A model generated the notes under the pieces. That model had not been told where the DNA came from, ran no database searches, and was given only the letters and a program-made list of their open reading frames with translations. From IMG/VR virus record IMGVR_UViG_3300033153_003115, positions 1 to 46,664 of that record: 46,664 nucleotides of DNA, one strand, 5' to 3'. Numbering within the stretch: the first letter of the stretch is position 1; every line of letters starts with the position of its first letter. Shown here piece by piece: positions 1,442-24,761 of the stretch. This stretch comes from a virus. The position numbers and the translations under genes were made by a program.

Positions 1442-1506
1442 TGAAACATCAACAAACTGAATCTAACTTTTGCTTATGCAATTTACGATAACCATTGGAG
1501 GCTAAA

Positions 1507-1521: not shown

Positions 1522-1529
1522 AACCGGTC

Positions 1530-1567: not shown

Positions 1568-1601
1568 AACAGCAAGAATCTAACTTAAATAGGGAGAGAG
1601 T

Positions 1602-2537: not shown

Positions 2538-2546
2538 GGTGATGCT

Positions 2547-2717
2547 ATGTGCGAAGAATGCGAAGATAGAGGATATATTGAAGGATCTTGCGGAGTTTGC
2601 AACGGATCAGGTGAGGGAATGTATGACGGTTCGACTTGTTGGTCTTGTAAAGGATCTGGAGTTGAAACTATAGAATGTAACTGTGAAGAGGAGATTGAAG
2701 AAGATGTCGAAAACTAA
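2547..2717 (+). CDS. Small DnaJ-type zinc-finger protein
   Basis: 56 residues with eight cysteines: CEEC, CGVCNGSG, CWSCKGSG and CNC. The CxxCxGxG units are those of the DnaJ central zinc-binding domain. The ATG at 2547 follows AAGGTGATGCT. The gene overlaps the Erf start by 14 bases. There is no J domain, so it is not a co-chaperone by itself; it more likely binds zinc for protein or nucleic-acid contact. Confidence 0.65.
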   Translation: MCEECEDRGYIEGSCGVCNGSGEGMYDGSTCWSCKGSGVETIECNCEEEIEEDVEN

Positions 2718-3432: not shown

Positions 3433-3433
3433 T

Positions 3434-4036
3434 ATGATAATAGTTGATATAGACCAAAACTCAGAAGAGTGGGACAAAGAAAGATTAGGCGCTATTACTT
3501 CATCGTGCTTCGGACAAATAATAGATTCTAAAGGCAATAGATCAAAAAGCCGTCAAAAGTATATGGATAAATTAGCTGCCGAGTTGATAACGGGCGAACG
3601 TATGGAGTCCTATAAAAATAGCCATATGGACAAGGGCCACGAAAGAGAATCAGAAAACCGCGACCTCTACGCCTTTAGAAACAAAGTAACAGTTGAAACT
3701 ATCGGCTTTTGCTGGAAAGATGAAAAAAAGCTTTACGGGTCAAGCCCTGACGGTTTAGTCGATGAAGACGGTTTAGTTGAATGTAAAAACTCAAACGGAG
3801 CGCAACAAATAGAACGTATTAGGGATGGGTGGACCGCTTCTACACATCACAGGCAAGCACAGGGACAACTATTAGTAACAGGTCGCAAATGGTGTGACGT
3901 TGTTTCATACTGCCGTGGAATGAAAACAGTAACCGTAAGATTTGGAAGAGACGAAGAATTTTTAAGAAAACTTGAAGTTGAGCTAATACTTTTTCACAGA
4001 GACCTACACGAATTAGTTAAATCGATTCAGGCTTAA
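3434..4036 (+). CDS. YqaJ/lambda-type 5'-3' exonuclease
   Basis: A 200-residue PD-(D/E)XK nuclease that would resect double-strand ends to feed the Erf annealase. Visible motifs: the N-terminal QNSEEWDKERLGAITSS (substrate arginine and the G-x-I-T/S-S signature of YqaJ/lambda Exo), the acidic helix MDKGHERE (residues 66-72), and the active-site pair GSSPDG (D106) and VECK (E116, K118). The length is typical for the family. It lies directly after erf. Confidence 0.85.
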   Translation: MIIVDIDQNSEEWDKERLGAITSSCFGQIIDSKGNRSKSRQKYMDKLAAELITGERMESYKNSHMDKGHERESENRDLYAFRNKVTVETIGFCWKDEKKLYGSSPDGLVDEDGLVECKNSNGAQQIERIRDGWTASTHHRQAQGQLLVTGRKWCDVVSYCRGMKTVTVRFGRDEEFLRKLEVELILFHRDLHELVKSIQA

Positions 4037-4062
4037 ATTAAATGAAAGATTTGGAGGGAGTT

Positions 4063-4236
4063 ATGGAAAGATGGCCGAATTGTAATACAACTACTTGCGG
4101 GTGGAATATGGGAACGAATCGCAAAGGTTATGAATATCTTAATAATTCATGCTACCACAACTCTGATACTGTCCCTTTCCAGAGTTGCACAAAAAGAACT
4201 ATTGAAAAGCCAAGAGATAAAAAGGAGACCCCATGA
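4063..4236 (+). CDS. Small protein with scattered cysteines
   Basis: 57 residues from an ATG at 4063 preceded by a very strong GGAGGGAG site; an in-frame ATG at 4042 lacks one. Cysteines occur at intervals (CNTTTCGW, NSCYH, QSCTK), suggesting a small zinc-binding or disulfide fold. The C-terminus is basic and overlaps the next gene by four bases (ATGA). Function unknown. Confidence 0.6.
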   Translation: MERWPNCNTTTCGWNMGTNRKGYEYLNNSCYHNSDTVPFQSCTKRTIEKPRDKKETP

Positions 4237-4412
4237 AACCATGCGTATATCAACAAATCTCAAAACAAGAGCGCCAAAGCTCTGAAAAGTGGAACGCTTT
4301 AACCTGTAAAAAGTGCGGAATGCACATGACAGCGGTAAAGCGCCCGACCGGTATCAAGTTTGTATGTTCAGGTATTTATTGTTACCATTCTGTTTTTGAG
4401 GCTGATAAATGA
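4233..4412 (+). CDS. Small zinc-ribbon-like protein
   Basis: 59 residues, starting in an ATGA overlap with the previous gene behind AAGGAGA. It carries CKKCG (residues 25-29) and a second pair CSGIYC (45-50), the layout of a zinc ribbon. It overlaps the next gene by four bases, so three genes in a row are coupled. Function unknown. Confidence 0.65.
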   Translation: MKPCVYQQISKQERQSSEKWNALTCKKCGMHMTAVKRPTGIKFVCSGIYCYHSVFEADK

Positions 4413-4810
4413 AAAATCCATTACCAAAATTCAGGGGTGTTCCAAACAATGGCGTAATGTCCATAAACAACATCGGCCAGTTCACAAGATACCTTCACAC
4501 CTTAGAAGGGAAAGAATGTGAAATAGTCGTTAAGAAGTGGCGTAAGAAAAGAACGCTACCTCAGAACGCTTATTTTCATGGCGTAGTATGCCTGATTTTG
4601 GGTAATGAATGGGGTTACGATGTAGACGAAGCACACAGCGCCATATGCACCGAATTTTTAACGATTAGCACAAAGGGCAAGCCTGACTATGTGCGATCAA
4701 CAACAGACCTTAGTACAGAAGAATTTAATGATTTTCTTGAGGTTGTAAAAATGTGGGCTTCGAAAGAGTTTGGAGTTTACATACCGGATCCAGAGAAGGT
4801 CGATATTTAA
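4409..4810 (+). CDS. NinB-like recombination protein
   Basis: 133 residues. The pattern K-RTLPQNAYFHGVVCLI (residues 48-63), a short helix with GYDVDEAH, then STTDLSTEEFNDFLEVV and the ending EFGVYIPDP is that of the phage NinB/Orf-like family. In lambda the family member binds single-stranded DNA and SSB and can replace host RecFOR functions. Its place right after the Erf-exonuclease pair supports the call. I am sure of the family resemblance and less sure of the exact activity. Confidence 0.7.
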   Translation: MKNPLPKFRGVPNNGVMSINNIGQFTRYLHTLEGKECEIVVKKWRKKRTLPQNAYFHGVVCLILGNEWGYDVDEAHSAICTEFLTISTKGKPDYVRSTTDLSTEEFNDFLEVVKMWASKEFGVYIPDPEKVDI

Positions 4811-6982: not shown

Positions 6983-9121
6983 TTAATTAAGGTCAACCCA
7001 TGTCGTTGTTCCAGTGTTAAGCCTTAATTTATTAGTCGTAGTGTTGTAATATAGACCACCCTCCCAATAATCACCGGATGAAAAGGTGGGGTCTGCCGCT
7101 GCTTTTGGTGGCATTATAACGGCTTGCTCTCTGTAGTTGTCTCCTAATCCAGCTTTTGTCACAAACCCAGCTTGAACCCAATCAGCTTCGAGGAAATTAG
7201 CCCCTGCAACTGGATCGTATAAAGAAGTTTCAACGCCTGTTAACGGGCTTATTGTTATTCTAATACAACCTTGCGTAACCACGTTTGCGGTAAAAGTTCC
7301 TGAACCCGTTGTATAACAGTTAATTAGAAAATATAGCGACCCATCTGCAAAATTACTTACACCCATTGTTCCGCTTGAATCTGCAACATCAGCGCCCAAC
7401 CATTGTAATATAGAATTTGTTTGCCCTATACCTGCTTGTCCTGTCCCGACTGATAGAAGTTGAGGAACTACGCTACCTATTGACGATAAAGGTGTGGGCG
7501 TTGTTGCGTTTGTGCCCCCCATTAAGATCTGAGCGTTATTCTCGGCATTGCCGATATTTATTAATGATCTTTGAGTTTCTACGCCTGACCCTGTAAAAGT
7601 AGCGCCTGCTCTGATAAATTGAATACCTGAGAATATTGGTGCGCCTCCTGAGCCTGAAATAATATCAATATTCCCATATACGTTGCAACTTGATACCGAT
7701 GTTCCTGGCACTCTAATCGCCATTGAGTTAGGCGTGTTTGTACCGTCCATTGTCCCTGAAAAATGTCTGACTGACTCAACCGTTCCTATCTGATAACCAG
7801 TACCACCGTTTAAAGTTGCTGATCTTTGATCATAAAATAAACCCTCTGTATCACTCCAAGCGCCATCAATTGAACAACCACCGGATAATTGGTAGATATC
7901 TGCATCAACTGGCTTTAAAGTATCAGCACCAGCCGAAACATATTTATTTAAGAATACATACCCGGCCTCAATAAAGACATTGGACCCGATTTGCGGGGAG
8001 TAGCCATCTGCTGCATATGTGGCAGATCCAAAACCGTTTTGTGAACTTTGAGAGTTGTTGAACATTAAAATAGAGTTGCCGGTGCCTGAGTGTATGCCTT
8101 GTTGATAATTAATCGTAAACTCTGAATTTTCAATAACCATGTTTGCATGATCGGTATTTTGATTTTCAGGACTACCTGAATAAAAACCAAACCTGGCATT
8201 AGATACAACACAATTTCTAATAGTTAGCATTCTCATTAATGACGATTCAACAACACTATCTAAATTGCCGATATAAAAACCAGCTAATGCGACATCCTCT
8301 GAAGTTGTATAACTGAATGTTGGCCTCCCAAGTATACCAATATTTTCGAATACGAGGTGGAAATTAGGGTTTGAAGGTGTTCCCGTACCGCCTTTTATCT
8401 GGATAACTGGGAGTTTTGCTGTAGAGTTCCACATTAAGGTATAGCCAGCACCCCCAGCACTTGAACGAATTGTTAAAGGAGCATCTGAATATATTTTACC
8501 CGAATGAGTACCGTCAACCACAAGAGTGCTTTCAGTCGCGTATGACTTACCAGCTTCAGGCATTGGCAAATATACAGCCTGTGCAGTCCTATTGCCTCCT
8601 GTTGCATCGTCACCTTTCAATAGATCAAAGCAAGCCTGGATAGCTTCATAATCATTTGTTGCGCCATCACCTTTAGCACCAGCCCACCTTACATTAACGG
8701 TGCTGTTATCCCATAGCCTTACCCATGCACCAGTTGCACCTGTTAAATCTACGTCAAGTGCAACATAAAAAATTGATTTTGTATCTGCAGCAACCTCTGT
8801 TGTTAAGTTGGACGGGTCCCACTGGAAACTCCAATATTGATTTTCGACTGAAGAATAATAACCCGTCACGTGGACAACTTGCCCGTCTTCAGGAGTGAAT
8901 GTTATTGCTCGTAAATCTGCTATACTGTCTACAGATTCAGCTTGTGTGAACTTTTCCTGAAACCACTCAGTCCATTTATAAACATTTCGCATCCAAGTGT
9001 TGAAAGTTCCGGAAGCTGGCTTGTTTTTTAATGGAAACCCGTCGCCTTCTTGCTCCGTCGTAATTCCCTCAACATTGGTTTCGTTCTCGTCCCATTTCGG
9101 AAGCTCTGTAGGTTCTGCCAT
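6983..9121 (-). CDS. Tailspike with pectate-lyase-type beta-helix
   Basis: 712 residues. Residues 1-60 (LPKWDENETNVEGI, then FNTWMRNVYKWTEWF) look like the virion-anchoring head common at the start of phage spikes. Residues 147-162 (AGAKGDGATNDYEAIQ) are the signature that opens the right-handed pectate-lyase-fold beta-helix, and about 160-600 is G/N/S-rich repetitive strand. The C-terminal piece (about 660-712) ends with GGLYYNTTTNKLRLNTG, a small cap seen on many tail proteins. It likely binds or cleaves host surface polysaccharide. No signal peptide. It is the last gene of the late operon; a 12-codon frame (9165-9127) supplies its AAGGAG site. Confidence 0.8.
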   Translation of the reverse strand: MAEPTELPKWDENETNVEGITTEQEGDGFPLKNKPASGTFNTWMRNVYKWTEWFQEKFTQAESVDSIADLRAITFTPEDGQVVHVTGYYSSVENQYWSFQWDPSNLTTEVAADTKSIFYVALDVDLTGATGAWVRLWDNSTVNVRWAGAKGDGATNDYEAIQACFDLLKGDDATGGNRTAQAVYLPMPEAGKSYATESTLVVDGTHSGKIYSDAPLTIRSSAGGAGYTLMWNSTAKLPVIQIKGGTGTPSNPNFHLVFENIGILGRPTFSYTTSEDVALAGFYIGNLDSVVESSLMRMLTIRNCVVSNARFGFYSGSPENQNTDHANMVIENSEFTINYQQGIHSGTGNSILMFNNSQSSQNGFGSATYAADGYSPQIGSNVFIEAGYVFLNKYVSAGADTLKPVDADIYQLSGGCSIDGAWSDTEGLFYDQRSATLNGGTGYQIGTVESVRHFSGTMDGTNTPNSMAIRVPGTSVSSCNVYGNIDIISGSGGAPIFSGIQFIRAGATFTGSGVETQRSLINIGNAENNAQILMGGTNATTPTPLSSIGSVVPQLLSVGTGQAGIGQTNSILQWLGADVADSSGTMGVSNFADGSLYFLINCYTTGSGTFTANVVTQGCIRITISPLTGVETSLYDPVAGANFLEADWVQAGFVTKAGLGDNYREQAVIMPPKAAADPTFSSGDYWEGGLYYNTTTNKLRLNTGTTTWVDLN

Positions 9122-9177
9122 AGTTACTCCTTTTCCTTCTTCAACTCTTTAATTATATCTAACATTTTAATAGTAGC

Positions 9178-10605
9178 CTATTTTAAAATTGCACTATTTA
9201 AATCAACACTACTCGCACTTATACCTGTCGCCGCTGTTGGTAATGTTACCGTAATACTATCTAAACCAGTTTCAACACTTGAATCTGTAGCGGTACATGT
9301 ATCTGTAACAGTTGGTAATACTCCTGAAACTGTAAAAGATTCTATTTGCTCATCCCACGTACCATCATCGGGTGTTACTGTGTACGCATTTGAAGAAACA
9401 ACACCTGTAATAGTACGCCCTGCTTCCGCTGTTGCTATGCCAGTATAAGTAGCGGGAGATGTTGATTCTTTGTCTGCTTCAAGCACTACTGCCGGATTTG
9501 TGCTTGCTTCACCTATTGTAATCTCAAAACCTGTTTCGTTAACAACACCATCAACATCAATAACGAAAACATAAGCCGTACCTGTCAAAGATCCTACGTT
9601 GCCTGTAACAGTAATAGAACTTGTACTCCATGCTGTAGGTGGCTGTATTTCTTTTATAGTGCATAAGGCATAATCAGCGTTATTCCCGATTTCAACTCTT
9701 GCCAAAGTATTATCGATGTAATAATCATCAAAAAAAACATGCTCGTTCCCATCTGACGTTCCGCCATATGTTTCTTCAAACCCTAAATACTTCCACCTTT
9801 TAAAATATGTTTCACCAGAATCTCTTGTTTGATACGCTGTGCGAGATAAGATAAGTTTACCGTCTATCCATATTTGTATTCGCCCGTCTGCTACTCCCGG
9901 CGTAGAATCGACATACTCCATTTGTACTTGATGCCATACCTGCCCTGCGAGATCAGTTTCAAACTCTCCCCACCCCATCTTGCCTGGGTCAACAAAGCCG
10001 GGATCTGGATGATCAAAGATTTCATCAACCCAATTTGTACCCGTTATAACAGGTTCCCAATCAATTGATGTTCCACCTGATATATCTTCAATCGCCGTAC
10101 TTACGTCATAACCTTCAAATGTGACCCTAATATTTTCCATGGGAACACCAGAAGTAGACCACAAGCGAAGGAACTTAGTATTGTTTGCTATATGTCCCGC
10201 AAAATCAGTTCCCGTAGGAAAATAAAACCAGTATTGTCCATACCATGCTTGACTATCCGCCCCACCCGTAAAGGCGGCATTGTTGTCAACAAGATCATCA
10301 GTAAAATTATAGTCTACTGCGTAAGTAGAATTTGAATTTCTTTGATTATTTGTTGTAATATCATCGGTTTGTAAATCATTTGTAGTTGACCATGTTCCAA
10401 CTGTAGCGGTAGTATCACAAACACCATCTTCAAGGTTATCCCATGCTACCGGGTTGGCGGTTGGTTTAGATGTAAAATCTGAAGCGCCTGAAGATATCGT
10501 AACCGATGCGCCGTGTGTTACGCTACTTACACTATTAATAGTGGGTGTTGCGAGTGTATTACAAGGTATTAAGCATAATAGTATTAAACATAATAGTTTT
10601 TTCAT
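9178..10605 (-). CDS. Exported ConA/lyase-fold protein with Ig-like tail
   Basis: 475 residues. Residues 1-20 are a textbook Sec signal (KK, a leucine/isoleucine/cysteine core, then NTLA before the mature start). Residues 45-310 form a concanavalin-A/polysaccharide-lyase-like beta-sandwich: YGQYWFYFPTG, then VWHQVQMEYVD, GRIQIWIDGKLI and VFFDDYYIDNTLARVEIG. The last 150 residues are two Ig-like or Big-type modules rich in T, V and S. A signal peptide is odd for a phage fibre. The start ATG overlaps the stop of the upstream gene (ATGA), so the signal is not a mis-called start. It may be a secreted or periplasm-directed glycan-binding or depolymerase protein. Confidence 0.65.
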   Translation of the reverse strand: MKKLLCLILLCLIPCNTLATPTINSVSSVTHGASVTISSGASDFTSKPTANPVAWDNLEDGVCDTTATVGTWSTTNDLQTDDITTNNQRNSNSTYAVDYNFTDDLVDNNAAFTGGADSQAWYGQYWFYFPTGTDFAGHIANNTKFLRLWSTSGVPMENIRVTFEGYDVSTAIEDISGGTSIDWEPVITGTNWVDEIFDHPDPGFVDPGKMGWGEFETDLAGQVWHQVQMEYVDSTPGVADGRIQIWIDGKLILSRTAYQTRDSGETYFKRWKYLGFEETYGGTSDGNEHVFFDDYYIDNTLARVEIGNNADYALCTIKEIQPPTAWSTSSITVTGNVGSLTGTAYVFVIDVDGVVNETGFEITIGEASTNPAVVLEADKESTSPATYTGIATAEAGRTITGVVSSNAYTVTPDDGTWDEQIESFTVSGVLPTVTDTCTATDSSVETGLDSITVTLPTAATGISASSVDLNSAILK

Positions 10606-13349
10606 ATTGCCTCAATTACCACGGAGATTATTGACTGATCTGCACCGGTGTTTGGTGTTACTGATTCTGTTACGCTATTTTCAAGAGATATATAATCTTC
10701 ATACCATCCCGCCATCCTACCCGATACTAAAGCCGTTCCCTCTATTTCTGTCATTGTACCATCTGCGGGGTCGGACAATAGAGCTATAGTGTCATCACTA
10801 CCGTACGCTATTAACAACATGGAATTTGCTGGTACGTCAACCGCCGTACTTGATATAGTCGTTGTTGGAGATTCTACAAATGTACTTGAAAAAACAGACG
10901 TTGAAAACGTACCCGAAGTTTTTGAGCACCTAAATACAAAGCCACCTTTATCACTTGATCCCGCTGACGAAAAAGCATAACTGCCGGATTCACTTGAAGC
11001 TATCTTTTTTAATACAGACATTCGAGAACTTGAAGAGGTTTGGGACGTAATCAAAGTAAAACCGTCAAGACCTGTTAACGGTTGGTCAGTATCATCGAAA
11101 ACAACCGCCCCTAAAAATTCCCCGTCTGATATGCCCGCAGGCGGAGCCAATGTTAATGTGGTGTTTCCCACAACCGCCGAAGACACTCCCGTAGATCCAT
11201 ATGTTACTGTTCCGCCACCACCGACCGATGGTGTATAACTCTGCCTAAATAGCATCATTAACATTGCGGGGTTTTCTTGTATTATCAACAGAGGTATACT
11301 ACCCGATTGTAGTACAGGTAAAGATAAAGCTGAATTATCTCTTGTTATTGAACCAGTAGGCGCTGTTGCGTCAAAACTCCCATACATATACCTTGCCTCA
11401 ACTACTGTACCTGTTGTATGCGTTAATTGTATTGTTGTCGCATTTAATACAGCACCGGATGCCGCAATCCAGTTGGGTGTAATAAGAGTCCCTATATTAA
11501 CATCGAAACCGTCACCACCAGTTATAGTATCGCCATAGTAAAGCCCCATATTAACATTTGTTAACAGGTTACTTACTCTACTGATTGTGTTAGCTGTCGG
11601 TGATTGATAGTCTGTGAAAATACCTTCCTGATACCCAGCCCATCTTGCAATTCTTAAACCTGCTTGAGTATAATTGGTTCCTGATATGTGTCCTGGTACT
11701 GATTCAGCAAAATCAATTACCGTACCAATTCCCTGAAACAACCCTTCGTTGAAATTTTCTGTTTTCCAATCACTTGTTTGTGTCCAATCAGCATCGGTAA
11801 CTGTAAAACCTGAGTTTGTCCACCTACCATGTAACATAACAAAAGAGGGGAGAACACCCGTTCCAGAATAGGTGATGTCTGTTCTGATTTGATCAGTCAT
11901 GAACGCGATTTCAGCAGCTTTGTAGCCTGTTATATCTCCGATACAATCGGTTTCATCTTGCCACCATATAAAACCGTTTAAGACACCACCAGAAGCTGCA
12001 GTAACCCACGCCAGAAAAGTATCGTAGTTGTCCGATGGATTTACCGCATTTGACCACCATAAAAATAATGGGCCTAAATCATTTTTCTCCATTAGAGCAG
12101 CACCGCCAACAGAGTAGTTCACAACTCCGGCAACACAACCTAAATCTGAAGATATCTGATTAAGCATATTAGTATCACCCAAACCAGTGACCGTAACCCA
12201 TGCTGTACCGTTAAACTTTCTTGTCTGATCAGACGGTGTGCCTGTGCCCTCTGTACCCATTCTAAACGGGTTAGATTGACCACCTTCCCCCATCAAATAC
12301 CCAACACCATAATTATTAGATGTTACGTCTATTATCGGAGGATCATTACTCTTACTTATCTCAAAATAATAATAAAAGCCTTTTGGTATACCTGATAAAG
12401 TTCCAGACCATACACCACCTGCTACTGATTGACCTGTTAGTGTATTAGAAAGATTACCATTTACGAGTACAGGTTGGTCATCAGATTTTCTTAATACACG
12501 TACTATTGGATTAGTTAAAGTACCTGCATATGTACCTGTTAATAATTGACTAAATTGACCATTTGAATCATAAGGATTTACTATACCATCAATAGCAGGT
12601 TCGTTAATTGTAATAGCGTTTGGTATTATACCTGTATAAATTTCTTCTACGTCATCTGTTGTTAATGCTCTATCCCAAAATGATACACGGTCAATAGGTC
12701 CAGTATGATAAAAAGGGAATGCTGTGAAACTGACACCTATATTTGTTTCCAAACCCGCCACTAAAGTAGTACCACCCAATGTAACATCAATTTCCAATAC
12801 ATTATCGAGCCATATTTTTAATGATGCACCATCTTTTACCCATGTTACATTGTAGTATACATCAGGAGATAGATTAGCCGCAATTTCTATTGTGTGTGTT
12901 TCTGTGCCGCCTTCTGTGGTATTAATTGTAAAATCTAAATTACCTGTGTTAAACCCACCAGCTAAAGCAAATTTATAAACTAAACCAGACGTAAATGGTA
13001 TTGTCCAAAATATATCGGTGTAAACAGTAGTATCATACATTATCCAACTCGTACCAGAAACATCGCCTGTAGTAATATTCTGTATAGCGGCGGCGTCAAC
13101 TGTCATGTATTGGTCAGTACCGTTGTAATCAACAGCACTATTGGCGTTTGAATCGTGGTCGACTGTGGAAGTTAACGGTGTTGTGCCTGCTATGGTGGCG
13201 TCGTAACCATTGGTAGAGCTATCCGCACGTCTTTCGTTGTCCGTTGTTCCTGATTGTCTCCAATCGGCTATTGCATCATCGTAAACTGCTGAATTTGAAG
13301 GTAGCGCAAAAAGTAAAACTAAAAGTATTGATAGAAATATTCTTTTCAT
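10602..13349 (-). CDS. Exported LamG plus SGNH (sialate O-acetylesterase-like) protein
   Basis: 915 residues. Residues 1-21 are a Sec signal ending SNSA. Residues 30-240 are a LamG/concanavalin-A-like lectin domain (WVKDGASLKIWLDN, then DRVSFWDRALTTDDVEEIY). Residues 245-350 look Ig-like. Residues 351-575 carry the SGNH/SASA esterase blocks: GEGGQSN with nucleophile S359, NYSVGGAAL, WWQDETD (462-468) and GHISGTNYTQAGLRIARW with candidate catalytic H554. About 690-915 is another beta-sandwich. It would remove acetyl groups from host surface glycans. The combination with an export signal is unusual for a tail protein. Confidence 0.7.
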   Translation of the reverse strand: MKRIFLSILLVLLFALPSNSAVYDDAIADWRQSGTTDNERRADSSTNGYDATIAGTTPLTSTVDHDSNANSAVDYNGTDQYMTVDAAAIQNITTGDVSGTSWIMYDTTVYTDIFWTIPFTSGLVYKFALAGGFNTGNLDFTINTTEGGTETHTIEIAANLSPDVYYNVTWVKDGASLKIWLDNVLEIDVTLGGTTLVAGLETNIGVSFTAFPFYHTGPIDRVSFWDRALTTDDVEEIYTGIIPNAITINEPAIDGIVNPYDSNGQFSQLLTGTYAGTLTNPIVRVLRKSDDQPVLVNGNLSNTLTGQSVAGGVWSGTLSGIPKGFYYYFEISKSNDPPIIDVTSNNYGVGYLMGEGGQSNPFRMGTEGTGTPSDQTRKFNGTAWVTVTGLGDTNMLNQISSDLGCVAGVVNYSVGGAALMEKNDLGPLFLWWSNAVNPSDNYDTFLAWVTAASGGVLNGFIWWQDETDCIGDITGYKAAEIAFMTDQIRTDITYSGTGVLPSFVMLHGRWTNSGFTVTDADWTQTSDWKTENFNEGLFQGIGTVIDFAESVPGHISGTNYTQAGLRIARWAGYQEGIFTDYQSPTANTISRVSNLLTNVNMGLYYGDTITGGDGFDVNIGTLITPNWIAASGAVLNATTIQLTHTTGTVVEARYMYGSFDATAPTGSITRDNSALSLPVLQSGSIPLLIIQENPAMLMMLFRQSYTPSVGGGGTVTYGSTGVSSAVVGNTTLTLAPPAGISDGEFLGAVVFDDTDQPLTGLDGFTLITSQTSSSSRMSVLKKIASSESGSYAFSSAGSSDKGGFVFRCSKTSGTFSTSVFSSTFVESPTTTISSTAVDVPANSMLLIAYGSDDTIALLSDPADGTMTEIEGTALVSGRMAGWYEDYISLENSVTESVTPNTGADQSIISVVIEAI

Positions 13350-13362
13350 AATTTAAAAACTC

Positions 13363-15816
13363 CTAATTGACATCAGCCTGCGCTACTACAGCATTAATAA
13401 TAGACGTACCACTAAAGGAAACGACAACAATATCTTTACCTGATGCGGTAAGGTCCACTGTTACACCGCCTATCGTGACTGTGTAATCTCCTGCTGTTTG
13501 CTCTGTCCATAAACCGATATACCTTCTATCCCCGGCGTTGGGTACATTGCTAAATGTAATAGTCACATTTTCATCTATAATCACATTGTGTTCTGATATA
13601 GATGCATCTATAACAAGTGTGCTGGTAATAACCGTGTCAGTGGTAAACGTTAAATCCGCTATTTCGTTTTCAGTTATATCACCGTCCTGCAACGTTGTAT
13701 TTTTTTCAAAAATTACTGTATCCGTTGACTCATCCACCCAAAAAGACAAAACAAAAGATCCCGCTTGTTGGATATAAAAAAGTAAATCAGAGTTTTCAGC
13801 GTCTTCAGCACCATCTATATATGGCCCTGTAATCCTACTCGTATATTTATCGGTTGCACCAGAACCCGGAGCATCTGAGTCCTGAAATGTTAAATTAGGA
13901 TCTGAGCCGGGAGCTAATGACAATCCATTTGAATCAATAGATGCCCCTGAATCTTCCACCTCTAATCCATCTGTCCCGGTGTATATTGGGATATTCCCGG
14001 CAACGGTTGGGGTTGTGCTTTTTACAATATTGTTTAAGTCGAAATCGCTATCGGTCATTGTTATCGTTCTTGTATTTCCGGTTGTTATTCCTGAAGCGTC
14101 AAAAGCTATTTGCCTTGTTACATCGGCGACATTCTGCACTCTAAATAAATTATCAGGAAATTCTACGCCACCAGAAGCTCCGCCACCACCCGCGGCAGTA
14201 GAAGGTATAAGGCCTCTCAAGTCTTCTGTTTCGATAACTGTTATTGTACCGGAATCTGCGGTTTGATATCTCATAGATAGCCTTGCTATTAAAAAACCTG
14301 TGCCCTTAAATTCACTTGGTATAGTATAGTTACTATGCTTGTTAAGGTCATCAACTACACCAATAGTTGTTGCGTAAAAACCGCCTGGTAAATTGATGAA
14401 TAACTGTGAATCGCCAGACGATTCAGAAACGCTACCCCAAATAATAAGTGAATAATAAGTATTGTTACTTCTTAATGTGGCCCCTGTTGAATCTTCATCG
14501 ATAGTGTTTAAATCAGTTATTCTATTATAAGCTGTTGTGTCGTCATTAACCACATATGTATGACTACCTGTTGCTGTATCAAAAGCAGGGTAGTTATGGT
14601 CATGCAATTGCAATACAGACGCAGAAGTTACCCCGATATCAACGTTGTCAATAGCTCCACCGTTAACGGTTATTGCTGGTGTTAACAAACCACCGCTGTT
14701 CCATGTCGCATGCTGGTGTCTAATCCAATGATTAACGTGTGCTAAGTGTCCCTGCTCGTCTGCACCCTCTAAGTGATCTGTCCAAGCATGCACTTTATAG
14801 GCCCCGTCTGTGTCAACCGATGGGGCACTCTGGACAAGTACGGTAGCCACAGGCACATGTTGAGCGCTTGGGAATCCTGCGGTACTCGCAGTTAAAACCA
14901 TTGTTGTTTCTGGAATAAAAACATAATTCATAGTAGGTGCTATATCTGACCCAACTGTCAAGCTTATTTCTGCGGCAGGAGTTGTGTCAATAATTTCAAA
15001 GCCACCATTGAAAAATAATGATAAATCGCCGCCGCCACTTTTCTCATAAGACAGAGTGACTGTATCTACGCCGTTGCTGGCTATAACTATGCTTGTGTCT
15101 TCCAGAACAGCGCCATTAAATATCTTAATAACACCGCTTGTATTTGTTCCTATACTTACAGCGACATCTATAGTTCCTGTAGTGGCGTTGATATTGCCCA
15201 TCGTCCCTACACCGATCATATAATTTGGCGATGTCGGGGGCGTTGTAATATAGTCTCCCGCTGAAGTTGCGGATAACCATAACTTAGCAACTGCGGTTTC
15301 TCCGAATGTGTTTTGGTTATTCAACAGTCCCCATCTTGTGATATATCCCCATGTTCCATCCTCTATTGTATGGGTAGCCCAGCCAATAGTTCCCAAGCAT
15401 TTAGCGGCATCATTAGCGATAGCAAGATCAACTGTTAACCCGCCTGTTGTTTCGCCTGATAGGTAGCATATTTTACCGTCTTGGATATCATCTCCGCTGT
15501 CATTATAAACACGAATCCAACCTTCTTGCCCCATTTGCTGAGACACATCAGGTTCATCGTTGTATGCCGTAAAAGCTTTTTTAACGCTGTCGTAATAAAA
15601 TAACCCTTCGGTGTGTGCTACGCCAGTCGTTGGAGTTAGTTTCACCGATACTGGATTGTATAACTCCGCTGTCATAGAATCCAAATCTATCCACGCATCG
15701 CCTTCTGTATATATTCCAGGGTTTGCGTTTTTTGCATCCTCAATATCGATACGAGCAGCTTGTGAAGTGTTAAAGCTAAGAGCTAATAGTAATATTACGG
15801 TCAATATCTTTTTCAT
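13363..15816 (-). CDS. Tail-type fibre protein carrying a Sec signal peptide
   Basis: 817 residues from an ATG at 15816 inside an ATGA overlap with the upstream gene, with AGGTGG as ribosome site; an in-frame GTG at 15828 is less likely. Residues 1-20 are a Sec signal (KK, leucine core, TSQA). The region that follows (GLFYYDSVKKAFTAYNDEPD, then GQEGWIRVYNDSG and GATHT-type turns) is typical of phage tail and baseplate-linked structural proteins. A G/T/S-rich long tail ends in repeated ITE/TFTTDTVI-like strands. A virion-type protein with an export signal is unexpected. Confidence 0.65.
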   Translation of the reverse strand: MKKILTVILLLALSFNTSQAARIDIEDAKNANPGIYTEGDAWIDLDSMTAELYNPVSVKLTPTTGVAHTEGLFYYDSVKKAFTAYNDEPDVSQQMGQEGWIRVYNDSGDDIQDGKICYLSGETTGGLTVDLAIANDAAKCLGTIGWATHTIEDGTWGYITRWGLLNNQNTFGETAVAKLWLSATSAGDYITTPPTSPNYMIGVGTMGNINATTGTIDVAVSIGTNTSGVIKIFNGAVLEDTSIVIASNGVDTVTLSYEKSGGGDLSLFFNGGFEIIDTTPAAEISLTVGSDIAPTMNYVFIPETTMVLTASTAGFPSAQHVPVATVLVQSAPSVDTDGAYKVHAWTDHLEGADEQGHLAHVNHWIRHQHATWNSGGLLTPAITVNGGAIDNVDIGVTSASVLQLHDHNYPAFDTATGSHTYVVNDDTTAYNRITDLNTIDEDSTGATLRSNNTYYSLIIWGSVSESSGDSQLFINLPGGFYATTIGVVDDLNKHSNYTIPSEFKGTGFLIARLSMRYQTADSGTITVIETEDLRGLIPSTAAGGGGASGGVEFPDNLFRVQNVADVTRQIAFDASGITTGNTRTITMTDSDFDLNNIVKSTTPTVAGNIPIYTGTDGLEVEDSGASIDSNGLSLAPGSDPNLTFQDSDAPGSGATDKYTSRITGPYIDGAEDAENSDLLFYIQQAGSFVLSFWVDESTDTVIFEKNTTLQDGDITENEIADLTFTTDTVITSTLVIDASISEHNVIIDENVTITFSNVPNAGDRRYIGLWTEQTAGDYTVTIGGVTVDLTASGKDIVVVSFSGTSIINAVVAQADVN

Positions 15817-16007
15817 ATTTTGTCCCACCTGCTGTCTAAAGTTTCATCCCACGCATCGTTAAGATTATCATTCCAAAAACTACCTTCCGGTAGCTCTCCA
15901 ATGATCTCTCCGAAAAAAAATCCTGTAAACGGAAAACCATCAAATAGTATTCCTGTAAACGGTATTCCTGTAAAAGCTCCCCCGGCTGCTCGCCTACGAC
16001 TTATCAT
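15813..16007 (-). CDS. Small protein with PFTG-type repeats
   Basis: 64 residues between two ATGA overlaps, so it is co-translated with both neighbours. Residues 10-33 repeat (I/F)-P-F-T-G (FTGIPFTGILFDGFPFTG) and the tail is tryptophan- and aspartate-rich (FWNDNLNDAWDETLDSRW). The repeats are hydrophobic but broken by G and P, so this is not a classic membrane helix. It may be a linker or adhesive peptide of the fibre. I do not know this family. Confidence 0.6.
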   Translation of the reverse strand: MISRRRAAGGAFTGIPFTGILFDGFPFTGFFFGEIIGELPEGSFWNDNLNDAWDETLDSRWDKI

Positions 16008-16351
16008 TCCGTTTCCCCTGCGTTAATAATTAATTCATATGTTCCGGCTGCTAATATAAAGGTAGCATCAGGGGTAATAGTTACTGAGTCAAATGAACCG
16101 TAAAAAGTAACGCTTTGCGAAACATTTTGAGTCGGTGTTATAGTTCCGTTTGAATCTGGTATTACAGGAACGGAGGAACCTATTCTGTTTGCTGTAATAG
16201 CTAAAGTTCCGGCTGTAGTGCCGGTAAATTCCATAGTTATTTCAACCTCTGTTAAATACTGCCCCCTGCGGTAATTGTCAAAATCGCCGGGAATGTTTAC
16301 CGTTTTTGCTGCGTTTAGCAATGCCTCTGTAAAAGTTACTATGTGTTTCAT
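16004..16351 (-). CDS. Small beta-rich structural protein
   Basis: 115 residues, threonine- and isoleucine-rich, with alternating strands (VEITMEFTGTTAGTLAI, then SVTFYGSFDSVTITPDATF). It looks like a single beta-sandwich or fibre-tip accessory. No signal peptide. Start ATG behind AAAGGAGC. It lies between the small exported protein and the PFTG-repeat protein. Function unknown. Confidence 0.65.
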   Translation of the reverse strand: MKHIVTFTEALLNAAKTVNIPGDFDNYRRGQYLTEVEITMEFTGTTAGTLAITANRIGSSVPVIPDSNGTITPTQNVSQSVTFYGSFDSVTITPDATFILAAGTYELIINAGETE

Positions 16352-16363
16352 AATTGCTCCTTT

Positions 16364-16756
16364 TTAAAAATATACAGTCTGTGCCAATCTATACTCTACA
16401 GATCCCCAACTTGAGTGACCTTTACTTATATTGCTGTCGGAAACACGACTCTCTATCCCGATCCATGTATCTTGCCATATTTTAGCATAATTATCGGGCA
16501 ACGCATAGGTTATTAACGCATGACCGGCAACGCATCCCCCAAAATATATATTAACATTATCTCTATGTGGCCTTGAGCCTAATATTTTGTTTTTCTCACC
16601 CCTCCAAGGTGTTTTAGCTATTACGAGCGTTTGTCTCCAATCGTTGTATATGGTCGCCAAAAAAACCAGTTCTCTTGCGGTTTTTTCTTGAGTCCACGCA
16701 GATTCGCCAGCTTTTGGAATTGCGATTAAAAATAGTATTAAAATAAAAACTTTCAT
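16364..16756 (-). CDS. Small exported protein with conserved NILG-type core
   Basis: 130 residues. Residues 1-19 are a Sec signal ending AGESA. The mature part (ARELVFLATIYNDWRQTLVI, then NKILGSRPHRDNVNIYFGG, then an alanine-rich helix and a final GSVEYRLAQTVYF strand) resembles a widespread small periplasmic family seen in phages and bacteria, with the plan 'D-W-x-Q-T ... NxILG-x-x-P'. Its role is not known. It is the first of four signal-peptide genes in this block. Confidence 0.65.
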   Translation of the reverse strand: MKVFILILFLIAIPKAGESAWTQEKTARELVFLATIYNDWRQTLVIAKTPWRGEKNKILGSRPHRDNVNIYFGGCVAGHALITYALPDNYAKIWQDTWIGIESRVSDSNISKGHSSWGSVEYRLAQTVYF

Positions 16757-16768
16757 ATTGCCTGCTTA

Positions 16769-18043
16769 TTAATCCAGCGGTAGAATAGCGTTAAATTTAT
16801 ATTCACCTATATTCATGCCTCCGTCTGATAAAGCTCTCAATGTTCCTCCGTCAGTTAAAACAAAACCCCACAAAGCATTGGCAGGAGAAGCCCCTACAGT
16901 CCCAGAGAAATATTGATCATAGTCAGGTTGTGTTATGCTCGTTCCTGAGAGTTGCCTCTCGTCCGTTCCCAGATAGTTTCCAGTTGTTGTGAATACGCCA
17001 CAGATATGAATAGATCTACCATCAGCCGCAACCCTATACCTCATTATGGGGACTCCCTGCACTACTCCAGATACCGGTGTTAATGTGACCCAATCGCCCC
17101 ACATACCATTTAGGGCATCAACTGCGGCAGCTACTAAACCTGCTGGGGTTACTGCTCTCTCTGCGTCTGTCCCGGCTACCGCCTCGGCTACAGTCGCAAG
17201 TTCGAGTATGCCGGTTCTTTCCTCTGTTGATGTCCGGCTATTTAATGATGCTGGTGTAATTACTTTCCCCGCTTCCGTTCCGGTAATTGTTTCAGCATTA
17301 CTCGCAAGGGCATATTTTTTTATTAAGGTTGGTGTGTCTGTTATTGTGCCGATAGACGTTGTAACACTTACAACCCATCCGTTATCCCAATCGCTCCAGG
17401 TATAAGAAAATTCACCGGCTAAAAAGTTAACGACGGCAATTTGTGGCATGTCCCATTCGCTATCCACAGCGCCGATATAAATAGCCGGGTATGTTCCATC
17501 ATGCCCGAATTGCACAGCGTAACTAATATTATTATTTGTTATTGCTGTTGTATTTTGCCATTCTTCTGCGGCGCTGTTTGCGTACCCGCCTAATGTCATA
17601 GTGAAGGTTTCACCGGTTGCGTCATCATATACCATGAGGTCGAACATTAATTTAGTATCGGGCCATTCTCCCATTGGTAACTGAATTTTAATATAACCGG
17701 TTTCTGTTGCCGACGATCTTAAAACGGCCCCGTCTGGTGAAGGGTTAACAGGGTATTCAGGGTTTGCACCACCACCGCCATCGTCGAAGCTTGGGTAATT
17801 CCTAATCTCTGCCCCGGCTGCATCCGTGATATAAAATCTTGTATCCCCGTCAATCCATATTGTGGCCTCTCCCCATGAGTCTAAGGCAATAGGGTTTTCG
17901 TGAGCAACGGTGTTGTCCTCGTCTTGATACGTTACTTTGTCGGTTGTTGTTCCAACGATGTAAGTATGGATCAACCCACCGGCCAAAGGTTTGCCATTTG
18001 CGTCGAATTGCTTGAACTGGCTATTTGTTATTAGTGTTGTCAT
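16769..18043 (-). CDS. Tail fibre/spike with P22-type anchoring head
   Basis: 424 residues. Residues 1-75 (QFKQFDANGKPLAGGLIHTY, then TTTDKVTYQDEDNTVAHENP, GEATIWIDGDTRFYI) are the conserved virion-binding head of podovirus spikes. The middle has fibre-like strands. Residues 240-320 contain the repeat plan TEAGKVITPASLNSRTS / TDAERAVTPAGLVAAA found in tail-fibre shafts. The C-terminus would be the receptor-binding tip. No signal peptide, unlike its downstream neighbours. The start overlaps the upstream stop by one base (TAATG). Confidence 0.75.
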   Translation of the reverse strand: MTTLITNSQFKQFDANGKPLAGGLIHTYIVGTTTDKVTYQDEDNTVAHENPIALDSWGEATIWIDGDTRFYITDAAGAEIRNYPSFDDGGGGANPEYPVNPSPDGAVLRSSATETGYIKIQLPMGEWPDTKLMFDLMVYDDATGETFTMTLGGYANSAAEEWQNTTAITNNNISYAVQFGHDGTYPAIYIGAVDSEWDMPQIAVVNFLAGEFSYTWSDWDNGWVVSVTTSIGTITDTPTLIKKYALASNAETITGTEAGKVITPASLNSRTSTEERTGILELATVAEAVAGTDAERAVTPAGLVAAAVDALNGMWGDWVTLTPVSGVVQGVPIMRYRVAADGRSIHICGVFTTTGNYLGTDERQLSGTSITQPDYDQYFSGTVGASPANALWGFVLTDGGTLRALSDGGMNIGEYKFNAILPLD

Positions 18044-20805
18044 TACTTCTCCTCGTCTGTAGCCAATGCCCTATCTATTATTTCCATTTTTGCCCTGTCC
18101 ATATAGTTTAGTAATTCTCTTTCTATTATTTTTACAGGCGGTTTCTTTCTGGATGCCTTTTCAATTATTTTAGCAAGATCAGGATCATATAAAAGCTTGG
18201 CTATAAAATCACTGGTTTCTTTTTCGTTGAGGTTTTTTAGTTTTCCAAGTCCTAACTTGCCAAGTTTTAATGTATAGCTTATTCCGGGGATATGAGCTAT
18301 TGAACCAATTACGCTTGCTATTGCGCTCATTTTCTCCGCCGTATCCGGTCCACCACCAACACCTTTTGCTGTTCTATTCATAATCAACAATGCTTTTCTT
18401 ACTGTCTGTAATGCTTTTATTTTGTCTGATTGACCTTTGTATAATACCGCCATTGCTGGCGCGTACTTTCTTAATGATTTATCAAGAGTTGCTTTGCTCA
18501 GTTGGTCTTTACCTTTTAACGTTTTGGCCGTTGTTTTAGCCTGCTCGTACATGAAATCCTTAAAGCCGTTTTCAAGTCCTTTTACAGCATCTTTATTTCC
18601 CTTGACTCGCTTTATGAGGTTCCGCATAATATCGCCGGTATTCTTTCCGCTGATACCTTCCCCACCTTCAAAAGCTCTCGCGACTGCATTTTGCGGGTCA
18701 GAGTTCAGCATTTTTGCTGCAATCGATTTACTAAAATCCGCCTCAGCTATTCGGGCCTGCTGTAATGATTTATGTGCTTTTTCTGCTGTTGTAAACTGGT
18801 CTTTAATTCCGTATCGTTCTAAAACCTTTTCATTTTTCTTTAACCAGTTATTAAGACCTGGAGCGTTCAATATTCCGTCATCACCGTATTTAACTTTATT
18901 AGCCATATCATCTGCGTAATGCCTTAACATGATATTACCGGCTTTTTCTGGACCGACTGCATTAATAAATTTATCGGCGCTTTCAACGTCCATCAGTTTC
19001 AACGGTCTTTTTTCTGCTGGTAATTTCTTTCCGCCTTGAAACTTTCCAGCCATTTCAAGTTCGTCCATTACGCCTGTCCTGAATCGGTCATGTATTTGGC
19101 TTTTGCTAAAATCTTTTGCGTTTTGATATGCAATAGCCGCGTTCTTTGCTGGTTCGGCTTCTGCAAGTTGGGTTTCAAGGGTTGCTTTTGTTTCCTTTAA
19201 GTGTGTGACGATAGCTTTTTCTTTAGCCTTTAACATCGGAGGATCGCCAAAATTAGTTTTATAACTTTTGACCATTCGGTTTTCCCATTGCTCAATCGGT
19301 TCTTGAACCTGTCTCATCATGCCGGGTATGTTTTCATCTTGTATTCGTTTTTCAATTGCTTTTATGTCTGGTTTTGCTACTGCTGTTTCTACACCCTCTT
19401 TTAGTAATTTAGCCTCTGTTTCTGCTAACTTTTTTTGCATCTGCTTAGGATGAACAACTTTACCTTTAATCGTTGCAAAGTCTCCCTTTTCCGCTGCTTC
19501 GCCTAATAGTCTGAAATCTTCGTTTATTGCTGTTTTGATTTGACCAAGCGCCCGTTTTGCTGTCTTATCTGCGTTAACGTCAAATATCACATCGTTCAGC
19601 TCTCTTTCAGCCGTTTGAAGCCCTTTTATTGTCTTTGGTCTTAGCTTATAGTTTTCATAGTGCTGTTTTACTATTTTTTGCGCTGTTGACGGTTCCGCAG
19701 CTAATTCCTTGAAAACTGTTTCTGTGTTTGCCGGAGCCATTTCGTAATTAGGTACTTTGTCCCAATATTCTTTTTCAAGTTTTTTTACAGGCTCCTGAAC
19801 TTCTTTTATGGTCTCGGTAATTTTCTTGCCTGTTACCTGTGGCGTTTCTGTCGGTATTGCCGCTTCGGTTGCCTTTGCTGTTCTTTCTGCTGTCTCTGCT
19901 CCGGCTCTTAACGTTGCCTTCTGAGTTGCCAATTCGCTGACAACATCGCCAATAGTTTGACCACCTTGGAATTTAGATGTTAGAAAGTTTTCGATAGCTT
20001 CCACGTTTTCGGCTTGCTGAACCTGGTCTAATTCTGCGGCTACACCTGATTTTGATTCTAAGCCTCTTTGAAGTTTAATTAGGCCGGGATCTCCGGTCTT
20101 CTGTCCGATGGTGGATTTAAAGCCCGGAACCTCATCACCCACACTTATTGATTCTGCAAGGTTTTTATCATATTGCGCCAAGTGCCCCCGGTTCTCTTGG
20201 ATTATCTCGGCTGCCCGTTTTGAAACTTGTTCTTCTGTCATTGCCGGTGTATTTTTTCTCACAAGATCCTTAACTTTATTGAATCCACCAGAAACGCCGC
20301 GACCTGCTAATGATAAAATTTTCATTGCTGCTGGTCCGCCAAACTCAAAAGTCAAACCTGTTTTAAAGTCTTGGAGCTGGTTTGTAATTTGTTTCATGGC
20401 TGGTCGTGTTTTTACTTCTGGCGGTAGAGTTACAGAGTCTTCTAAATAGTCCAATACGTTTTTAGCTGCTGTGTATCCTCCTGCTGCACCTGCCGCCGCT
20501 ACTACTGGTGCCAGTGGTCCTGCTGGTGCGCCTAAAGCCAAACCACCTGTCGCGCCCGCTACTGAAGACAAGCCTTCAATTGTTGGTCTCGCAAGATGTA
20601 TTCCTGATTTAACGCCTTCTTTTGTGACATCTCCAATTCTTTTAAATAAGGTTCCGGCACTGCCGAGCTGTGAAGGGTCTATTGGTTTTAATTCCTGCCC
20701 CGGTTCGTCAAGCGTAAACCCTTCAGGCAATTCAGCGCCGTATGTTTTCTGCTCTGGCTCGTCAAGTGCGAAGCCTTCTGGTAGTTCTGCGCCGTATTCA
20801 GCCAT
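18043..20805 (-). CDS. Large ejection protein (P22 gp16-like position)
   Basis: 920 residues. Residues 4-17 and 22-35 are two copies of YGAELPEGF(A/T)LDEP, a short motif also seen at the N-termini of other phage injected proteins. Residues 75-115 are a glycine/alanine-rich hydrophobic stretch that could enter a membrane. About 190-760 is helical and coiled-coil with K/E/A-rich segments. This is the architecture of internal proteins that are ejected with the DNA. It follows the gp7- and gp20-like genes as gp16 does in P22. No lytic transglycosylase motif is seen. Confidence 0.65.
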   Translation of the reverse strand: MAEYGAELPEGFALDEPEQKTYGAELPEGFTLDEPGQELKPIDPSQLGSAGTLFKRIGDVTKEGVKSGIHLARPTIEGLSSVAGATGGLALGAPAGPLAPVVAAAGAAGGYTAAKNVLDYLEDSVTLPPEVKTRPAMKQITNQLQDFKTGLTFEFGGPAAMKILSLAGRGVSGGFNKVKDLVRKNTPAMTEEQVSKRAAEIIQENRGHLAQYDKNLAESISVGDEVPGFKSTIGQKTGDPGLIKLQRGLESKSGVAAELDQVQQAENVEAIENFLTSKFQGGQTIGDVVSELATQKATLRAGAETAERTAKATEAAIPTETPQVTGKKITETIKEVQEPVKKLEKEYWDKVPNYEMAPANTETVFKELAAEPSTAQKIVKQHYENYKLRPKTIKGLQTAERELNDVIFDVNADKTAKRALGQIKTAINEDFRLLGEAAEKGDFATIKGKVVHPKQMQKKLAETEAKLLKEGVETAVAKPDIKAIEKRIQDENIPGMMRQVQEPIEQWENRMVKSYKTNFGDPPMLKAKEKAIVTHLKETKATLETQLAEAEPAKNAAIAYQNAKDFSKSQIHDRFRTGVMDELEMAGKFQGGKKLPAEKRPLKLMDVESADKFINAVGPEKAGNIMLRHYADDMANKVKYGDDGILNAPGLNNWLKKNEKVLERYGIKDQFTTAEKAHKSLQQARIAEADFSKSIAAKMLNSDPQNAVARAFEGGEGISGKNTGDIMRNLIKRVKGNKDAVKGLENGFKDFMYEQAKTTAKTLKGKDQLSKATLDKSLRKYAPAMAVLYKGQSDKIKALQTVRKALLIMNRTAKGVGGGPDTAEKMSAIASVIGSIAHIPGISYTLKLGKLGLGKLKNLNEKETSDFIAKLLYDPDLAKIIEKASRKKPPVKIIERELLNYMDRAKMEIIDRALATDEEK

Positions 20806-23212: not shown

Positions 23213-23397
23213 TCTGCACCGTTAATGTATGTTATTTCTTCCGTTTCAACCGTAGGTGTAACCTGTATTACTACATCGATTGTATTCGTGTTGTTTATTG
23301 CATCAGTTAAAGTTTGTAACCAATCTCTCCACGGTCTTGTTAAAAAGCCACCTTTGTCGAGCACTGTTGATCTTATTGGAGGTTCTTCTATTCCCAT
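23209..23397 (-). CDS. Small virion-module protein
   Basis: 62 residues. The opening EEPPIRSTVLDKGGFLTRPW followed by a WLQTLTDAIN helix is a recurrent small phage protein type located next to tail genes. It overlaps both neighbours (10 and 4 bases). It may be a tail accessory; no tail-needle (gp26) length coiled coil is present. Confidence 0.6.
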   Translation of the reverse strand: MGIEEPPIRSTVLDKGGFLTRPWRDWLQTLTDAINNTNTIDVVIQVTPTVETEEITYINGAE

Positions 23398-24761
23398 GAT
23401 ACACCACCGAATAAATACGCTCTTTGCATTGATACAAAAAATTCATCTGTAATTCTTATTCTAAAAGCTCTATGTGTTGCTGAACCTAAAGAATAAAATT
23501 CAACCCTTTGCAGGAATTGCCCGACCTTACCCAATGACTCATGAATTACAGTACTCCATGTTTTCCCAAAATCATCAGAATAATCAAGCATAATCTGCGG
23601 ATCTCCAGTTATTTCTGTTGCTGTTTGTATCTCAAGCAACAACCTTTCGAAAAAGGTGGTTCGTGACTCTATGTGCGTGTATTGGGTGGTTCGCTCACGG
23701 TAGATCGGCAACGTGCCGTCTAACCTGCTGGATGGATCAATCTCGTAAATGATGCCGTTCTCTTTATCGCCTACTAAATTTTTACCACTGTAACGAATAA
23801 AACAATTTGACGTATGCCGGTTATTGTAACCGCCTGTACTCCACTTATACCATACTGTAGTGGAGGTGTCAAAACAATATGTTATGTTAGCGCCTGGAAA
23901 GGTTAAAACGTAAACAACGTGACCTTCGATACTATAAGTATACCCTATTGCTTCTTGCGGATCTATTAGGCTACTAATTTGGAAATCTATTGCAGGAGTA
24001 GACACTATTTGCGTTTGTCTTCCTGATAAAACACGTACCTGAAAATTATCATCTAAAAAATAAACAAGGTTGTTGACTTTTGTGGGTGAATATTTAGCAC
24101 CACATCCAGTTTCAATAAAACCACCGGCTCCAATTTTAAAAGGTAATACCGCGCTTCCAGTGGTATAATCTATCTCTATACTATTAGCACCGAAAATGAT
24201 CATGTCTTTGTGATCTGACAATAGACTCACAATAATATCCGGGTATCCTTCCGCTGATATACTTACCCACGATGATAAATCAGTTGATGCAAGGGCGCTC
24301 CCTGTTTCTGGAACTGATATTATAAACCAACCATCTTGATATGTCATGTTTGAAGCTGTTCTGACTAATGTTAGCGTAACACCTGATTGACTGTAAACAT
24401 TAGCGCCATCACAAACGGCCATTTTTGTTCCGTCGTTGAATATCTGACATTGGCCTGCGGAAGTATTAAGGGTTCCTTTTGCTGTTTTTATACCGCCTGC
24501 CCCCGATGGTCCAGTTATACTGTACAGAGTGTCACCTATTACAGCATGGAGAACACCAGCGAAAATATCAAACCCTCTCACCTCGTCGGATTCTTCAGAA
24601 TCAAACCACTGTGCCAATCCGTGAGTGCCCCGTAAATAAGCTTGAGCGTCTCCACCCTCTTTATCTACTTCAACATACATATTGATTAACTCTTGTATAT
24701 TGTTTCGGTCCCTACCTTCGTAAGCGCCACCAATTATATTAAACGGTAATTTAACCGACAT
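23388..24761 (-). CDS. Packaged-DNA stabilisation / tail hub protein (P22 gp10-like)
   Basis: 457 residues. The N-terminus (KLPFNIIGGAYEGRDRNN, then QELINMYVEVD and a G-T-HGLAQW turn) and the beta-propeller-like repeats after it fit the P22 gp10 family, which plugs the portal-gp4 channel and holds the tailspikes. It follows the gp4-like gene with an 11-base overlap, the same order as in P22. Confidence 0.8.
   Translation of the reverse strand: MSVKLPFNIIGGAYEGRDRNNIQELINMYVEVDKEGGDAQAYLRGTHGLAQWFDSEESDEVRGFDIFAGVLHAVIGDTLYSITGPSGAGGIKTAKGTLNTSAGQCQIFNDGTKMAVCDGANVYSQSGVTLTLVRTASNMTYQDGWFIISVPETGSALASTDLSSWVSISAEGYPDIIVSLLSDHKDMIIFGANSIEIDYTTGSAVLPFKIGAGGFIETGCGAKYSPTKVNNLVYFLDDNFQVRVLSGRQTQIVSTPAIDFQISSLIDPQEAIGYTYSIEGHVVYVLTFPGANITYCFDTSTTVWYKWSTGGYNNRHTSNCFIRYSGKNLVGDKENGIIYEIDPSSRLDGTLPIYRERTTQYTHIESRTTFFERLLLEIQTATEITGDPQIMLDYSDDFGKTWSTVIHESLGKVGQFLQRVEFYSLGSATHRAFRIRITDEFFVSMQRAYLFGGVSWE

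Follow-up and report, generated by a model that had tools for sequence, protein, structure and literature searches.

Sec signal peptides on tail-module proteins of a P22-like phage and of Acidobacteriota prophages suggest that virion parts may cross the membrane before assembly

Secretion signals on the tail proteins of a P22-like podophage and of its relatives suggest that parts of the virion cross the membrane before joining the particle. The textbook view holds that tailed-phage assembly is entirely cytoplasmic, and we know of no tailed phage that exports virion parts across a membrane before assembly. As read from sequence, the trait extends beyond one contig, being present in the P22-like phage analysed here, in prophages of soil Acidobacteria and in scattered other uncultured phages. 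Export of the signal-bearing tail proteins through Sec is very likely, while attachment to the virion as their main role is favoured but unproven, and we regard it as evenly balanced.

The window, that is the whole stretch of DNA analysed here, comprises 46,664 bases and is an IMG/VR virus record from a P22-like, short-tailed podophage, with late genes on the minus strand in P22-like order and the terminase upstream. A morphogenesis module was called P22-like when a portal, an Hc3/gp10-type head-closure protein and a gp7-type ejection protein lay within a single late block, and the window has a portal (phrog_1216, 1e-13), Hc3 and a gp7-like ejection protein (phrog_598, 6e-28) so arranged. Matches to Hc3 were found in 51 phage records, and the cultured relatives identified by this protein (Rhodoferax phage P26218, Vibrio phages and BA3) share just 23-34% identity with it, P26218 standing at 34%. 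Behind the ejection genes comes the tail block (6983-18043), in the order 16769, 16364, 16004, 15813, 13363, 10602, 9178, 6983, each gene being named here by its first coordinate. The large gene directly preceding it, 18043, has its best homologues in L019 (5e-34) and L017 (2e-29), two contigs which both carry signal-peptide tail anchors. The coordinates and reading frames of the initial annotation proved correct, and the features are as follows.

23388..24761, minus strand: P22 gp10-like head-closure protein (Hc3), marker of the P22-like module (phrog_578, 3e-79)
18043..20805, minus strand: large gene directly preceding the tail block, probably an ejection protein
16769..18043, minus strand: tail fibre with P22-type N-terminal anchor (residues 9-118; phrog_972, phrog_26190), no signal peptide; the non-exported counterpart
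16364..16756, minus strand: small protein of 130 aa, predicted to be exported, with a weaker signal
16697..16756, minus strand: probable signal peptide of 16364-16756, about residues 1-20
16004..16351, minus strand: small beta-rich protein of 115 aa, no signal peptide
15813..16007, minus strand: small gene, 64 aa, no signal peptide
13363..15816, minus strand: tail fibre of 817 aa, predicted to be exported, its signal grafted onto an ordinary fibre body
15757..15816, minus strand: predicted signal peptide of 13363-15816, residues 1-20; start set by ATGA overlap
10602..13349, minus strand: protein of 915 aa, predicted to be exported, with signal, LamG/ConA lectin (76-234) and SGNH/SASA-like esterase (about 350-580)
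13290..13349, minus strand: predicted signal peptide of 10602-13349, residues 1-20
9178..10605, minus strand: beta-rich protein of 475 aa, predicted to be exported, weakly ConA/polysaccharide-lyase-like, type I signal
10549..10605, minus strand: predicted signal peptide of 9178-10605, residues 1-19; start set by ATGA overlap
6983..9121, minus strand: tailspike/EPS depolymerase-like protein with a pectate-lyase fold (phrog_4250, 5.6e-7), no signal peptide

Signal peptides were scored with our own three-region log-odds scorer rather than SignalP, with output in bits. Ten known E. coli precursors scored 13.6-24.4 bits, with OmpA and DsbA at about 24, and among 89 annotated E. coli K-12 coding sequences all those reaching at least 15 bits were exported proteins or lipoproteins. 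A type I Sec signal was taken to have a basic n-region, a hydrophobic h-region 7-16 residues long, small residues at positions -3 and -1 and no lipobox, and on our own scorer four window proteins have these features, three strongly and one more weakly. The signals of 9178 (24.1 bits, predicted cut MKKLLCLILLCLIPCNTLA/TP), 10602 (20.6 bits, MKRIFLSILLVLLFALPSNS/AV) and 13363 (22.7 bits, MKKILTVILLLALSFNTSQA/AR) match E. coli exported proteins in strength, lying in the OmpA/DsbA range. The fourth, on 16364, scored 11.2 bits with an ambiguous cut position (MKVFILILFLIAIPKAGESA/W), and so of the four clear signal peptides claimed originally three are strong and one is weaker than that word allows. 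The remaining listed genes of the window scored at most 6.4 bits at their annotated starts, and when any internal start was allowed a few others reached 9-13.5 bits through transmembrane stretches. Among 20,000 random N-termini of window composition 54 reached 11 bits, seven reached 15 and none reached 20, and none of 3,195 internal protein segments reached 20 bits. Since no random N-terminus attained 20 bits, chance is ruled out for the signals of 9178, 10602 and 13363; that the signal of 16364 arose by chance is unlikely. All four genes fall within one six-gene block (hypergeometric p about 5e-5). The gp7-like ejection proteins of the window and its relatives have a Gly/Ala-rich hydrophobic N-terminus with weak signal-peptide scores of 6-16 (6.4 for the window gene, 22008-22757), and those N-termini scoring 10-16 in some phages were left out of the tail-signal counts.

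The starts of 9178 and 13363 are set by ATGA overlaps with the upstream gene, and that of 10602 has an AGGAG about 10 bases upstream, in line with what had been asserted for the whole set; 16364 has only a weak ribosome site. A dual start yielding a cytosolic form was looked for in the window's four proteins and in nine relatives; none has an internal start led by a ribosome site close to the cut, and thus no signal-free form is evident. No transmembrane segment was seen in the predicted mature parts of the four proteins, whose 19-residue hydropathy peaks at 1.3-1.7. Lipoprotein export was rejected, there being no lipobox in any of the four. Nor was a peptidoglycan hydrolase domain (lysozyme, amidase or peptidase) found in them, so they do not class as signal-peptide or SAR endolysins. 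A match of 13363 to phrog_5404, labelled 'endolysin' (E 0.0075), maps inside its tail-fibre domain.

The body of 13363 is, by homology, an ordinary tail fibre, in keeping with the typical tail protein reported earlier for the block: its homologues, Roseobacter phage CRP-6 (gp61 type, E 4e-16) and others, are annotated as tail fibres. The closest relative, L237:4848-7055 (48% identity over 493 aa), has no signal peptide and begins with an ordinary fibre start, MTIKQGKIEAGSITLNAKEVTDISTGAADNDKLATKGYVDDE, where the window protein has a signal instead. A second homologue, in L254 (31% identity over 610 aa), does have a signal (17.2 bits), and signals were present in 3 of 79 homologues of the 13363 domain. 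A signal-peptide tail fibre with a 13363-type domain was also seen at L246:3663-6044, and the Gln after its cut resembles exports of Bacteroidota or Acidobacteriota. The LamG lectin described in 10602 is solid (Laminin_G_3, E 1.1e-8). An SGNH/SASA esterase was defined by a Ser in GQS(N), a Glu/Asp block, a His block and a significant family match; the catalytic residues claimed for 10602 are in place as motifs (GQSN 357; WWQDETD, ETD 466; GH 553), but its Pfam SASA match is sub-threshold (E 0.0075). The ConA/lyase-like domain ascribed to 9178 likewise corresponds to Pfam PL14/Polysacc_lyase matches below the cut-off (E 0.025-0.03). No relatives of 9178 were found in the phage collection or the fetched loci, and it showed no homology to proteins of other signal-bearing contigs. 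A single homologue of 16364 was found, L102:6573-6944 (35% over 80 aa), which has a signal of 16.0 bits and lies beside another phage's tail fibre. Single-protein scans of IMG/VR with 13363, 10602 and 16364 gave no relatives, a PDB sequence search gave no match, and AlphaFold2 models built without an alignment were unusable (pLDDT 34 and 32, the latter for 10602). The P22-type anchor (phrog_26190 type) is absent from all four predicted exports; the anchor of 16769, which bears no signal, is homologous to exported anchors of L017, L019 and L158.

We surveyed 80 Hc3 loci and about 80 anchor loci from IMG/VR, with greedy gene calling. Signals of at least 14 bits were located directly before a P22-type anchor in 4 of 133 viral anchors (L017, L019, L158 and L176); with the Acidobacteriota prophages described below, these provide the signal-fibre fusions in related phages that the initial annotation had proposed searching for. 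Signals were also found on a tail-collar fibre (L122:8677-11208; phrog_523, 2e-16; Pfam Collar), on a fibre that follows a short anchor gene (L154), on proteins combining an anchor with a K1-lyase C-terminal domain (L158 and L416), and on a SASA esterase directly behind an anchor fibre that is itself an ordinary tail fibre (L049:18327-19181). Whole tail modules with signals, of three genes each, occur in L422 and L423, and in L097 a run of five genes behind the ejection genes appears to be exported, the fifth lying below the 11-bit cut-off used for listing. The third of these (L097:10882-13026) has a signal frame which opens with ACG and not ATG; either the start is non-standard or the sequence contains an error. 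Three loci near the window by terminase (L318, L335 and L347) have signal-bearing genes of 15.0-21.1 bits, one of them an anchor. Six P22-like records scanned whole (L010 and L091-L095) had no tail-fibre signal, and the trait was absent from the isolate relatives sampled. In the cultured Rhodoferax phage P26218, gp24 (L010:15489-15998; 169 aa, signal 21.8) lies two genes after the anchor fibre. Signal genes were also noted among the head genes of several of these phages, between coat and Hc3 (L202:3735-4757, L208:3354-4094, L422:227-1435, L404:13613-14323 and L047:5495-7186), with no Pfam match for the three tested. Signal genes with PEP-CTERM ends in L033 were excluded from the counts as probable flanking host DNA.

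Bacterial genomes were scanned with a broad anchor alignment, an alignment of signal-bearing anchors having given no matches. Of the 33 anchor loci, all five from Acidobacteriota had a signal before the anchor; the 27 other loci that could be read had none. Follow-up sweeps of Acidobacteriota, Terriglobales and Pseudomonadota brought the strong Acidobacteriota anchors (E <1e-20) with a signal to nine of nine, against about 1 of 36 elsewhere; a weaker Acidobacteriota anchor, L213, had none, and one of nine new Pseudomonadota anchors carried one (L220). The association of signal with Acidobacteriota (9/10 versus 1/37 elsewhere) gave a Fisher p of 7e-8, a value to be read with caution, because signal-bearing anchors led the alignments and near relatives are non-independent. 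The most distant Acidobacteriota anchor matches were mixed, with a signal in 3 of 6. In Acidicapsa dinghuensis the prophage encodes a terminase, a portal, Hc3 and a gp7-like protein. Signals stand on both of its tail proteins: L202:7920-10040 scores 23.5 bits, and 1506-4454 on the reverse complement of L427 scores 22 bits. In another prophage, G952, three signal-bearing tail genes accompany terminase, portal, scaffold, coat and Hc3 (1e-107), and in L423 the three signal-bearing tail genes are consecutive. No tail-fibre gene without a signal was identified in the A. dinghuensis, G952 and L423 prophages. At L182:7929-9659 (Acidobacteriales 59-55) a protein with signal and tail anchor sits by itself with host genes around it, and may be a domesticated exported fibre.

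In 15 distinct signal-anchors of phages and prophages the predicted cut precedes the first position of the anchor model by 4-7 residues, and in 146 ordinary anchors the last upstream Met has its mode 7-9 residues from the anchor, a distance counted slightly differently. Because the cut position matches the usual Met position, the predicted mature protein is equivalent to an ordinary anchor. The anchor tree (84 columns, 184 rows) is poorly resolved; the best tree has nine changes, two of them forced by supported branches.

The best reading, to which we give no more than an even weight, is that Sec-exported tail appendages join virions at lysis. The infected cell would export the tail-appendage proteins via Sec, with removal of the signal peptide, and the mature fibres would fold in the periplasm, probably as trimers. 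Once the holin opens the inner membrane, DNA-filled, fibre-less heads would meet the periplasmic fibres, which would bind the tail at lysis to finish assembly; any excess of fibres and esterases could act on envelope glycans and debris. P22 tailspikes are the last component to add, and can be added to heads in vitro, findings that reportedly go back to Israel in 1967 and Berget in 1980. The sequences hold predicted signals, their in-register fusion to virion-attachment domains in relatives, and recurrence in intact prophages; export followed by attachment at lysis would explain why the anchor is retained, why the signal is in register and why other fibres are lacking. More tentatively, and with a little under even confidence, we propose a second assembly route for tailed phages, in which Sec-secreted receptor-binding appendages mature in the periplasm and are mounted only at lysis, fixed in the P22-like phages of Acidobacteriota and acquired elsewhere. 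Against export followed by attachment, in the window the anchor fibre 16769 and the depolymerase 6983 (signal-peptide score -25) lack a signal and the four predicted exports lack an anchor, and the isolate relatives sampled do not show the trait; moreover, if the sole receptor-binding proteins are exported, every progeny head would need completion at or after lysis.

The strongest competitor, which we consider distinctly less probable though far from negligible, is that the proteins are non-virion effectors: soluble lectins, esterases and lyases, tail-fibre bodies redeployed as glycan binders, that leave the cell or are kept in the periplasm until lysis and strip or mask surface glycans, so that progeny are freed from debris, superinfection is blocked or the matrix is opened. 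It fits the window's four at least equally well, because the anchor fibre and depolymerase are not exported, and the LamG and SGNH-like make-up of 10602, the SASA esterase of L049, the lone signal-anchor gene of L182 and the precedent of bacterial WceF, an exported glycan enzyme of tailspike fold (PMC7949094), all suit it. It does not readily accommodate the 15 cases in which a signal is fused in register to a virion-attachment anchor, or complete prophages in which no non-exported fibre was identified. Two options had been offered at the outset, exported effectors that alter surface glycans (for superinfection exclusion, capsule removal or biofilm release) and structural proteins that take a new route to the virion: export is well supported, and the relatives favour the structural option, since their signals stand in register before a virion-attachment domain or on a tail-collar fibre and the complete Acidobacteriota prophages show no non-exported fibre. 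The window's four fit either, and virion incorporation is least certain for them because they have no anchor.

It is improbable that the hydrophobic N-terminus is instead an uncleaved signal-anchor or assembly tag that holds fibres at the inner membrane face or in the virion for entry. Some podophage virion proteins do have hydrophobic N-termini, as the window's gp7-like protein shows, and SAR endolysins retain an uncleaved signal (PMC6116005), but the type I c-regions with small-residue cleavage motifs, the predicted cut in register before the anchor and the mature window parts devoid of a further membrane segment speak against it. Neutral acquisition, with functionless signals gained by recombination, is very improbable indeed: the patchy distribution among viral anchors would suit it, but it is opposed by the failure of all 20,000 random N-termini to reach 20 bits, the clustering of signal genes in one block, their recurrence in every strong Acidobacteriota anchor and the at least two changes forced on the anchor tree.

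If receptor-binding proteins are exported first, completion of the virion would be tied to lysis, fibres could form disulphides or fold in other ways in the periplasm, and free fibres would be borne or shed by infected cells before lysis. The trait is readily testable in Acidicapsa dinghuensis, a cultured host not known to be pathogenic. Missing signal peptides have been taken as support for the phage origin of phage DGR targets (PMC6199706); a signal peptide on a tail gene should not count against phage origin.

No earlier description of Sec-exported tail fibres was found by searching the full texts of open PMC papers. The window resembles the P22 tail module in its gene neighbourhood (portal, Hc3/gp10, gp7-like protein, tail genes) and N-terminal fibre anchor, but the P22 gp9 tailspike is cytoplasmic and has no signal, whereas here a fibre body or anchor follows a Sec signal. 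A P22-like Vibrio phage, 1.211.A (MG592581), has in its tail block a protein with anchor and SGNH esterase, in that case without a signal peptide. Pantoea stewartii WceF is likewise an exported tailspike-like fold acting on exopolysaccharide, but it is encoded by a bacterium rather than a phage, carries a Tat signal and lacks a virion anchor (PMC7949094). Phages are known to send endolysins through Sec, and the signal-peptide and SAR endolysins (fOg44 Lys44, P1 Lyz and phage 21 R21) are thus late proteins of tailed phages that use host Sec (PMC6116005); those are lysis enzymes, whereas the proteins predicted to be exported here belong to the tail module, as fibres and glycan-active proteins.
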